From positions 1 through 55,442 of the forward strand of contig SVSL01000007.1 in NCBI GenBank assembly GCA_015064315.1: 55,442 nt of DNA, in the 5' to 3' direction. Source of the stretch: Oscillospiraceae bacterium. Lineage in GTDB: Bacteria > Bacillota > Clostridia > Oscillospirales > CAG-272. The notes below the pieces were generated by a model. That model did not search any database and was not told the origin of the DNA. It saw only the letters and a list, made by a program, of their open reading frames with translations. How positions within the stretch are numbered: the stretch's first letter is position 1; each line of letters starts with the position of its first letter. Of this stretch, positions 23,730 to 26,403 are shown piece by piece. Both the position numbers and the translations under genes were made by a program.

Positions 23730-23761
23730 GAGAAAAATACAAGCGGAAAGGAGGACGCACC

Positions 23762-26344
23762 TTGAAAAAGAAGATCACCATTGGCATTCTTGCCCACGTG
23801 GACGCGGGAAAGACCACTCTGAGCGAGGCTTTGCTCTACGTTTCGGGAAGAATCCGAACGCTGGGGCGGGTGGATCACAAAAACACCTATCTTGATACCA
23901 ACGCCATTGAGCGCGAGCGCGGAATCACCATTTTTTCCAAGCAGGCAAGGTTTTCAAGCGAGCATTGCGATTTTATCCTCCTTGATACCCCCGGACACGT
24001 GGATTTTTCCGCCGAAACCGAGCGCACCCTCTCTCTTCTCGACTACGCGATCCTTGTGATCAGCGCCTCGGACGGCGTGCAGAGTCACACACGCACCCTC
24101 TGGCAGCTTCTTGCGCATTACGGCGTTCCGACCTTTCTGTTCGTCAACAAGTGCGATCTCGCAATCAAAACGAAGGAAGAGCTGGAAAAGGAGCTTTCCA
24201 GCATTCTCTCCCCTCTGTGCGTCGGCTTTTTGGAGGCAGAGGAGCGGGAGGCACTGGAGGAAAGACTTGCCTACGTTCATGAGGATCTGATGGAAAGCGT
24301 TCTGTCGGGAGAGGGCATCGACAACGCCGATATTGCCGAGCTCATTGGCAGTCGCAAGCTCTTCCCCTGCCTGTTCGGCTCTGCCTTGCGGATGCAGGGA
24401 ATCGATTATTTGCTTGACGTCCTCGACGAATACACCCTTCCCCCGATCTATGACGGAGACAGCTTTGGCGCAAGGATCTACAAGATCGCGCGCATTGGAA
24501 GCACGCGTCTGACCTATATGAAGATCACCGGCGGCAGTCTCCGCGCCCGCGATGAGATCCTCTATCTCTCGGAAAGCGGCACCCCCGTGCGCGAAAAGGT
24601 GAGCCAGATACGGCTCTATTCGGGAGACAAATTTGAGCAGACCGACAGAGCGGAAGCCGGCGAGATCTGTGCCGTCATCGGGCTTTCCGCCACCTACGTC
24701 GGTCAAGGACTGGGAATGGAGCAGAACACGCAAAAGCCCCTTTTGGAGCCCGTGCTTTCCTATGCAATCGGTCTTCCCGAGGGATGCGACGCGCGGCTTC
24801 TCTTTCCCAAGCTGAAGGAGCTGGAGGAGGAAGAGCCCTCCCTGCATCTGATGTGGAACGAGGAGCTCTCGCAAATCGAGGCACGGCTGATGGGCGAGGT
24901 GCAGACCGAATTGATCCAAAGGCTGATCCGCGACCGCTTCTCCATGGATTGCACTCTTGGCGCGGGCAGGATCCTCTATAAGGAGAAGGTAGCACAAAAA
25001 ACGCTGGGTGTGGGGCATTTTGAGCCCCTGCGGCACTATGCGGAGGTGCAGCTTCTCATAGAGCCTCAGCCCAAGGGAGCAGGCTTGATTTTTGATACAC
25101 GTCTGCCCGAAAACGACCTGGAGCTGAACTGGCAGAGGTTGATTCTGACCCATCTTTACGAGAAGGATCACCGTGGCATTCTCACGGGCTCTCTGCTCAC
25201 CGACACCAAGATCACCCTTGTGGCGGGAAAGGCCCATCTGAAGCACACCGAGGGGGGCGATTTCCGCGAAGCGACCTATCGCGCGGTCAGACACGGACTC
25301 ATGAAGGCGGGGTGCATTCTGCTGGAGCCCTACTACAAATTCAGACTGGAGCTGCCCACTCCTTGCGTGGGCAGAGCCATGTCGGATCTGCAGGCGCGCT
25401 TTGCGGAATTTGAGCTCGAGATCTCCGATGAGGAGCGCACCACCATTTGCGGAAGAGGCCCCGTTTCCACCCTTTTTGACTATCCAAAAGAGGTGATTTC
25501 CTACACACGTGGTGCAGGAAAGCTCTTTTGCACCTCGGACGGATACGAGCCCTGCCACGATCAGGAGCGCGTGGTGGAGCAGATGGGATACAACCCCGAA
25601 TCCGACCTTGAAAACCCTCCCCACTCGGTATTTTGCGCACACGGGGCGGGCTTTACCGTCCATTGGAGCGAGGTGGATAACTACAAGCATCTGGAGGTCA
25701 ATATCAAAGAGACTTCGGCGGGAGAGGCGATCATTCCAAGACCCTCCACGCTGACGCGGAAATACAAGGTGAGCGACGAGGAGCTGGAGGCGATCATGCA
25801 AAGGCTGTTCGGTCCCATCAGGCGCAAGCAGTACCGAGAGCCAAGAGTGAACGCGGCAACGCAGGAAAAGCCACGGCGCAACGCCAAGCTTCGCCCACAG
25901 AGAAACATGGTGATCGTGGACGGATACAATCTCATCTACTCCGACGAGCGACTCAAGGAGACCGCTGATTTCAGCCTGGAGAAGGCGCGTGAGGAGCTGA
26001 TGGATCTCTTGAGCAACTACGTTTCCTATACCCATACCGAGCTGGTTCTGGTATTTGACGCCTATTTGGTAAAGGAGGGCGAGGGCTCGGACTTTATGCA
26101 CGACGGCTACAGGGTGGTCTACACCAAGGAGAATCAAACCGCCGACGCCTATATCGAGCGGATGATGCATGAGCTTGGACCCGATTACAGCATCCGCATG
26201 GTTACCAACGACAGACTCCTGCAGTTCTCGGCAGTGCATTCGGGAATCTCCCGTATGACGGCGAAGGAATTTTTGGAGGAGCTGACGGGAATCGGAAACG
26301 AGATCAGCGAATTTTTGCGCAAGCTCTCGGAGAGCAAGCGATGA
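23762..26344 (+). CDS. Tet(M)-like translational GTPase fused to a NYN nuclease domain
   Basis: This 860-residue protein has two parts. Residues 1 to about 690 form an EF-G/Tet(M)-type translation GTPase. AHVDAGKTT is G1, ERERGITIF the switch region, DTPGHVDF G3, NKCD G4; EF-G-like domains follow, ending with HGAGFTVHWSEVDNYKHLEV. Residues from about 716 form a NYN/PIN-like domain like YacP/Rae1: NMVIVDGYNLIYSDERL, LVLVFDAYLVK, ENQTADAYIERMM and IRMVTNDRLLQ supply the expected acidic residues. Rae1 of Bacillus subtilis cuts mRNA in the ribosomal A site, where Tet(M)-like GTPases also bind. The start is a TTG with GGAGG upstream. The gene is monocistronic. Whether it confers tetracycline resistance is doubtful. 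Confidence 0.88.
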   Translation: MKKKITIGILAHVDAGKTTLSEALLYVSGRIRTLGRVDHKNTYLDTNAIERERGITIFSKQARFSSEHCDFILLDTPGHVDFSAETERTLSLLDYAILVISASDGVQSHTRTLWQLLAHYGVPTFLFVNKCDLAIKTKEELEKELSSILSPLCVGFLEAEEREALEERLAYVHEDLMESVLSGEGIDNADIAELIGSRKLFPCLFGSALRMQGIDYLLDVLDEYTLPPIYDGDSFGARIYKIARIGSTRLTYMKITGGSLRARDEILYLSESGTPVREKVSQIRLYSGDKFEQTDRAEAGEICAVIGLSATYVGQGLGMEQNTQKPLLEPVLSYAIGLPEGCDARLLFPKLKELEEEEPSLHLMWNEELSQIEARLMGEVQTELIQRLIRDRFSMDCTLGAGRILYKEKVAQKTLGVGHFEPLRHYAEVQLLIEPQPKGAGLIFDTRLPENDLELNWQRLILTHLYEKDHRGILTGSLLTDTKITLVAGKAHLKHTEGGDFREATYRAVRHGLMKAGCILLEPYYKFRLELPTPCVGRAMSDLQARFAEFELEISDEERTTICGRGPVSTLFDYPKEVISYTRGAGKLFCTSDGYEPCHDQERVVEQMGYNPESDLENPPHSVFCAHGAGFTVHWSEVDNYKHLEVNIKETSAGEAIIPRPSTLTRKYKVSDEELEAIMQRLFGPIRRKQYREPRVNAATQEKPRRNAKLRPQRNMVIVDGYNLIYSDERLKETADFSLEKAREELMDLLSNYVSYTHTELVLVFDAYLVKEGEGSDFMHDGYRVVYTKENQTADAYIERMMHELGPDYSIRMVTNDRLLQFSAVHSGISRMTAKEFLEELTGIGNEISEFLRKLSESKR

Positions 26345-26370: not shown

Positions 26371-26403
26371 AAAGCCGAATGGACGGGGATCCATTCGGCT
26401 TTC
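26371..26403 (+). terminator. Terminator after the GTPase-NYN gene
   Basis: A 13-bp perfect stem (26371-26383 with 26391-26403) is followed by TTTCTTTG. It lies between convergent genes and has an A-rich 5' side, so it may serve both the GTPase gene and the MFS transporter gene. Confidence 0.8.

Follow-up and report, generated by a model that had tools for sequence, protein, structure and literature searches.

Fusions of a translation GTPase with a Rae1-type NYN nuclease are common in Clostridia and seem to replace the standalone nuclease

The window analysed here, a stretch of DNA of 55,442 nucleotides from a gut member of the Clostridia, encodes a protein of 860 residues in which an EF-G/Tet-type GTPase (domains I–V) is followed by an extension containing two cysteines, a variable linker and a YacP/Rae1-type NYN domain. 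Such proteins are common in Clostridia, where they seem to stand in for the standalone enzyme, and we think it somewhat probable that the window protein acts as a ribosome-dependent mRNA endonuclease of the Rae1 type, carried by its own EF-G-like GTPase, and does the job of standalone Rae1. The fusion type has been known since 2015, and the comparative evidence on replacement and neighbours is new: the mutual exclusion of the fusion and standalone Rae1, the state of the rlmB-sigH site, the placement of the GTPase apart from Tet/Otr proteins, and the ylmH neighbour.

Gene structure and domain organization

The features of the gene and of the protein are compiled in Table 1. The first-pass annotation had described a single chain joining a translation GTPase with recognizable G motifs to a Rae1/YacP-like NYN domain that keeps its acidic residues, and this description is borne out at each point. 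Pfam domains of both parts were found in the one chain, and the same frame is present in 40 homologues from other genomes that are 45–50% identical to the window protein. The N-terminal part matches GTP_EFTU (E 1.3e-51), with its G motifs confirmed by a census of 41 rows, and the C-terminal part matches NYN_YacP (E 1.8e-36) with a score of 126.1 bits, above the curated cut-off of 24.6. A comparison of the C-terminal 161 residues with the PDB, with hits listed up to E 10, gave only the B. subtilis YacP/Rae1 entries 5mq8 (E 2.6e-20) and 5mq9 (E 2.5e-20). An artefact or a chance read-through joining two genes was set aside, since the same single frame recurs in many genomes; by a length filter, a fused frame of more than 820 residues is present in 71 of the 80 named loci.

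Table 1. Position of the fusion gene, its flanking signals and the domains of its product in the window.
Feature	Position	Strand	Basis
Promoter-like site TTGAAA-17-TATAAT, end 32 nt upstream of the start codon	23701..23729	+	11/12 consensus matches
Ribosome-binding site AAAGGAGG, 7 nt upstream of the TTG start	23747..23754	+	read from sequence
GTPase-NYN fusion gene, 860 aa	23762..26344	+	single open frame, TTG start
GTPase domain, residues 3-225; AHVDAGKTT, RGITI, DTPGHVDF, NKCD, GSAL	23768..24436	+	PF00009 (GTP_EFTU) E 1.3e-51; motif census in 41 rows
EF-G domain II, residues 248-313	24503..24700	+	PF22042 E 2.7e-5, 24.6 against a cut-off of 27 bits (just below)
EF-G domain III, residues 329-400	24746..24961	+	PF14492 E 6e-6, 26.7 against a cut-off of 27 bits (just below)
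EF-G domain IV, residues 420-516	25019..25309	+	PF03764 E 4.6e-12
Domain IV tip loop GKAHLKHTEGGDF, residues 489-501	25226..25264	+	alignment; differs from Tet(M) GLYYSPVSTPADF
EF-G domain V, residues 520-601	25319..25564	+	PF00679 E 3.4e-17
Conserved post-domain-V extension, residues 596-645, C598 and C625	25547..25696	+	alignment
Variable, basic linker, residues 646-716	25697..25909	+	alignment of fused proteins
YacP/Rae1-type NYN nuclease domain, residues 717-857, D720 D766 D795 D817	25910..26332	+	PF05991 (NYN_YacP) E 1.8e-36
Terminator-like hairpin, 13 pairs	26371..26402	+	computed site scan

The region contains two promoter-like sites, compared with a mean of 1.6 in shuffled sequence, and four terminator-like sites, compared with a mean of 3.4, so that the hairpin alone is weak evidence; the gene looks monocistronic because of where the promoter-like site and the hairpin lie and not because of their number. 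Raw counts over 59 named fusion loci gave a promoter matching 10 of 12 consensus positions within 300 nt upstream in 14, of which 13 lie 15–53 nt before the start, and no promoter at this level within 300 nt in the other 45. An antisense open frame of 761 residues (23954-26239, minus strand) lies under most of the fusion gene and is probably an effect of composition. A reading of the fusion as part of a defence system was set aside, as none of the PADLOC families matched the protein at E 0.001.

Conservation of functional residues

Conservation was examined in two sets of fused proteins, one containing the window protein and 40 homologues from class genomes (41 rows) and the other the window protein and 69 named loci (70 rows). 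The second set was retrieved with the patterns GH[FY]EPLRH and KHT[EQ]GGDF, and the conservation of these two stretches is biased in it for that reason. In the 41 rows, residues D14, K17, T18, T56, D75, H79, N129, K130 and D132 of the GTPase and D720, N723, D766, E790, D795, E799, T815 and D817 of the NYN domain are invariant. In the 70-row set D720, D766 and D795 remain invariant, with D817 present in 69, E799 in 67, T815 in 65 and E790 in 56 of the rows. The acidic residues D720, D766, D795 and D817 are also retained by all 49 of the 50 standalone Rae1 rows that have residues at these positions, and E790 by 30 of the 49; the 50 rows leave 47 distinct standalone proteins, as L030 and L189 are truncated fused genes and L185 and L190 are one gene. 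A lack of conservation of the NYN acidic residues in homologues, which the first-pass annotation would have taken as a refutation, is thus not what the rows show. Both cysteines of the extension following domain V are found in 41/41 fused rows (C598 in 68/70 and C625 in 70/70 of the named set), and the aligned rows of Tet proteins and EF-G lack this extension. Residues H492, K494, H495 and T496 at the tip of domain IV are kept in 41/41 rows.

The asparagine of the G4 motif (N129) is kept in 42 rows of the 70-row set and is replaced by Thr in 26 and by Ser in 2, which is unusual for a GTPase. The substitutions possibly reflect an altered nucleotide preference.

Distribution of the fusion and of standalone Rae1

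Of 291 class genomes, 188 have NYN_YacP above its cut-off, fused in 105 and standalone in 83, the two states being told apart by frame length. G224, in which the gene is split over contigs, was put on the fused side, here and in the counts of the extension given below, because its NYN adjoins the fused rows of its genus in the tree. The fusion and standalone Rae1 occur together in none of the 291 genomes, compared with approximately 30 expected if the two were independent (P ~1e-20, ignoring shared ancestry). Candidates for a second Rae1 in G136, G201 and G242 were rejected, the matches being below the cut-off; G133 carries two fused copies. The sampled loci fall in 38 families, four of which (f26, f27, f31 and f32) hold both states, in different genomes. 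In the source genome of the window, the single NYN_YacP match of the profile search is the fusion itself, and the absence of standalone Rae1 from it is not firm because the genome is about 82% complete.

The two forms also differ in their surroundings. Among 50 rows of standalone rae1, with flanks of approximately 1.5 kb at most, an RlmB-type gene (called with a motif of our own) lies directly upstream in 42, a SigH-type gene downstream in 29, and both are present in 24. Twelve fusion genomes were searched for rlmB; in three of them (G136, G222 and G025) sigH follows rlmB after 0.1–0.6 kb with no NYN match between the two genes, and in the other nine no sigH lies within the flank of rlmB. Standalone Rae1 is found without this GTPase in 73 of the 291 class genomes, so mRNA cutting need not require the GTPase, a point against the function proposed below.

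Proposed function

Rae1 of B. subtilis is described as an endonuclease that cuts mRNA in the ribosomal A site (PMC12320835 and PMC6613710, in the parts available). If the fusion is a nuclease of this type, its GTPase half, with GTP bound, would occupy the factor site of a ribosome that has an empty, blocked or slow A site, and the NYN domain on its basic linker would reach and cut the mRNA, either within the A site or a little past it. Hydrolysis of GTP would then release the factor, leaving the truncated message to tmRNA or to ribosome quality control, and the fusion would in this way do the job of standalone Rae1 in these bacteria. GTP-dependent binding to the ribosome would be carried over from the EF-G and Tet families and A-site cutting from Rae1; the order of events, what stalls the ribosome and the fate of the cut mRNA are inferred. 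In favour of the proposal speak the Rae1-type domain with its acidic residues, the absence of standalone Rae1 from fusion genomes, the three rlmB-sigH sites that lack rae1, the A-site cutting described for Rae1 and the ylmH neighbour. Against the proposal, an EF-G-like body that inserts domain IV into the A site and a nuclease would be rivals for the same space. Because of this competition the NYN domain may act beside domain IV by means of its long linker, or before or after the step catalysed by the GTPase. It also counts against the proposal that the ylmH link described below belongs to one clade and is absent from the window.

Should the proposal be true, 105 of 291 class genomes, or roughly a third, carry an mRNA-cutting translation factor instead of Rae1, which would give no-go decay a bacterial counterpart open to testing and show by what means NYN nucleases can be directed to ribosomes.

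The ylmH neighbour

The 80 named loci include 77 fusion loci with at least 800 nt of downstream sequence, and in 20 of these ylmH is the next gene on the same strand (L094, L095, L098, L100, L103, L104, L108, L111, L112, L114, L115, L118, L119, L123, L126, L129, L137, L138, L149 and L156). Its likely start lies between 28 nt before and 243 nt after the end of the fusion gene, three of these ends having been taken from match ends, and its identity was confirmed at one locus by the Pfam model YlmH_RBD (E 1.3e-8). The fusion proteins of the 17 ylmH loci that belong to the 70-row set are 51–99% identical to one another (median 58%), and the arrangement is essentially that of one clade, because only two changes are needed on a quick tree. 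In L159 ylmH lies divergently upstream of the fusion gene, as it does, judged by position, at the unfused GTPase gene of G034. In the class sample, where 200 genomes match ylmH, no further case was seen when the ylmH positions among the matches listed were compared by eye with those of NYN_YacP and of the extension. The window, which is a whole contig, contains no ylmH, and the source genome does have the gene.

YlmH is an S4-domain protein described as a ribosome quality-control factor acting on 50S-peptidyl-tRNA (PMC11317155, in the part available), and a search of that paper for GTPase, Rae1 and Clostridia gave no hit. The neighbourhood suggests a more specific reading, which we regard as tentative and rather unlikely, that the fusion is a single-protein no-go-decay factor of bacteria. 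The GTPase would sense ribosomes stalled with an unfilled A site, the nuclease would cut the mRNA and the products would enter the YlmH/RqcH pathway; the clade in which ylmH follows the fusion gene is rich in Oscillospiraceae. The suggestion of the first-pass annotation that the protein serves ribosome rescue or an antibiotic response gains from ylmH one hint of context on the side of rescue; antibiotic response is considered below.

Unfused relatives and history of the family

A profile of the extension matches 122 of the 291 class genomes, and these comprise the 105 with a fusion and 17 others whose GTPase, of about 650 residues, is unfused. Standalone Rae1 is present in 10 of the 17, and the remaining seven (G207, G078, G237, G029, G062, G183 and G034) lack any NYN_YacP match. 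Since these seven genomes keep the unfused protein, the GTPase is of some use by itself, which counts against the proposed function. The first-pass annotation would have counted separate domains in close relatives against its proposal; separation does occur, in the 10 of 291 genomes that have both proteins, and we read it as an unfused arrangement and not as a refutation. Among 398 genomes of the phylum, the extension profile hits 29, including eight that belong to the class of the window, and the frames measure 857–937 residues in 23 and 651–674 residues in 6, fused and unfused being told apart here by length only.

In the tree of the GTPase part, the 42 fused rows form a group with a support of 91 that also takes in a single unfused row, from Ligilactobacillus salivarius; of the 17 remaining unfused rows, 16 form a group with a support of 94. 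The simplest reading of this tree would be one fusion and one later loss. In the NYN tree, where support is weak throughout, a group with a support of 86 contains all but one of the 48 standalone rows, fused rows (L060, L068 and L069) are placed around it on several sides, and the standalone row L022 joins fused rows at 90; a single origin of the fusion is not confirmed by this tree. The L. salivarius copy, which has the tip ASNVHTVGGDF, probably lost its NYN domain, given its place among the fused rows, which suggests transfer together with loss of the nuclease. It is located on plasmid p612A (L085, 2983-4917) and adjoins rpsN, the gene of 30S protein S14.

The existence of both parts as separate genes in 10 class genomes bears on another explanation, which we consider unlikely, that the GTPase acts after the cut: the NYN domain would cut the A-site mRNA and the EF-G-like half would move or split the cut complex for recycling. 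The adjoining ylmH in one clade is also in line with this explanation, since YlmH acts on 50S-peptidyl-tRNA, as is the tip of domain IV, where H492 lies in the alignment column of the EF-G tip histidine, which we take to be H583. An H583K substitution in EF-G is reported to stall translocation (PMC4490557, in the part available). Against action after the cut, the unfused GTPase and standalone Rae1 do not occur together above chance (10 of 17 genomes compared with 7.6 expected, P 0.16), and a linked occurrence of the two was rejected. The fusion family has, to our knowledge, no known translocation or splitting activity.

Relationship to tetracycline resistance proteins

The description of the GTPase as Tet(M)-like in the first-pass annotation agrees with its domain layout and fails on family membership. 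The best NCBIfam match of the window protein is tet_protect, with a score of 384 bits compared with a cut-off of 775; three relatives score 414–450 bits and a Tet(M) control 878. In a tree of the GTPase part rooted with EF-G, the 60 rows of the fused and unfused family form a clade with a support of 99, and Tet(M), Tet(O), Tet(S) and an OtrA-like row form a separate clade with a support of 98; the tree holds only these four Tet/Otr rows, and its EF-G and OtrA-like branches are long. Identity to Tet(M), Tet(O) and Tet(S) is approximately 29–30% over residues 3–595. Tet B(P), a possible near relative, was not seen among the matches listed.

The aligned tips of domain IV read GKAHLKHTEGGDF in the window protein, GSYHDVDSNEMAF in EF-G and GLYYSPVSTPADF in Tet(M), the first having the same length as the last. 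K494 lies in the alignment column of the Tet(M) drug-site proline, and this proline of the domain IV loop is said to sit in the drug site (PMC8161019, in the part available). A Tet(M) mutant with the substitutions S508A, P509A and V510A has been reported to be active (PMC4750697, in the part available), so a different tip is compatible with drug displacement. A true Tet protein was set aside on the cut-off, the tree and the tip, though not conclusively, the triple mutant weakening the argument from the tip.

Another explanation, suggested in Atkinson 2015, is that the fusion is a ribosomal protection protein against tetracycline or another drug which gained an RNase domain. It draws on the tet_protect match, the Tet(M)-like length of the tip, the active triple mutant and the annotation of relatives as members of the TetM/TetW/TetO/TetS family. 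We consider it very unlikely, given the low score, the separate clade and the other residues of the tip, and its presence as one copy in 105 of the 291 class genomes is more like that of a housekeeping gene. With 32 nt between the promoter-like site and the start codon there is also little room for an attenuator, and attenuated, drug-induced expression was set aside on the position of such sites close to the start in the window and in 13 named loci; an antibiotic response has accordingly found no support.

Fused and unfused relatives alike are labelled 'TetM/TetW/TetO/TetS family tetracycline resistance', and the 384–450 bits of the window protein and three relatives stand against the cut-off of 775. 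A fused copy with its NYN domain on an Agathobacter rectalis plasmid record (L230, 3971-6772) is annotated as a tetracycline resistance ribosomal protection protein, as is the unfused plasmid copy of L. salivarius (L085). The label 'tetracycline resistance' is probably misleading for the fusion family, and its use for such proteins may inflate counts of resistance genes in gut genomes.

Plasmid or phage cargo was set aside as a reading of the fusion. Only 2 of the 1249 plasmid records that match cover at least 80% of the window protein. The two best phage records, L231 (5001-7544, MT835563.1) and MT835514.1, are unannotated scaffolds of human-fecal origin and cover 97–98% of the protein; one of them is marked UNVERIFIED, and the matches may be bacterial DNA.

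Least probable of all, in our estimation, is that the NYN domain processes or inactivates rRNA or tRNA with the GTPase as its ribosome anchor, for although a proposal that NYN domains mature rRNA and tRNA is cited in Atkinson 2015 (PMC4342817, in the part available), the characterised YacP/Rae1 cuts A-site mRNA.

Comparison with known systems

The first-pass annotation has to be supplemented by an earlier description: the available part of Atkinson 2015 (PMC4342817) reports 'Tet' proteins of Clostridia that carry a YacP-like NYN RNase domain and suggests RNase-based antibiotic resistance. Matched by description, those proteins share with the window protein a Tet/EF-G-type GTPase followed by a YacP-like NYN domain, and their occurrence in Clostridiales; they were noted in ten species, and the role proposed there is drug resistance by an RNase, whereas the role proposed here is the cutting of mRNA on stalled ribosomes. 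No experimental study of the fusion was found in the open-access literature searched, a body of text outside which the main Rae1 papers lie. A 2018 paper on the distribution of Rae1 may mention the fusion already.

Tet(M), Tet(O) and Tet(S) have the layout of domains I–V in common with the fusion, which differs from them in falling below the curated cut-off, in its own clade and tip, and in the added extension and NYN domain. The unfused GTPases of about 650 residues in Clostridia and L. salivarius share with the fusion the clade supported at 99 and the two-cysteine extension, and those of Clostridia also the KHTxGGDF tip in the 16 rows whose tip was listed, whereas their chain stops at the extension and has no NYN domain. 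Rae1/YacP of Bacillus subtilis has the NYN_YacP domain in common with the window protein, with 144 residues aligned and the DGYN and FDA motifs shared, but Rae1 stands alone, whereas the NYN domain of the window protein is the C-terminus of a GTPase and is encoded at a different locus.
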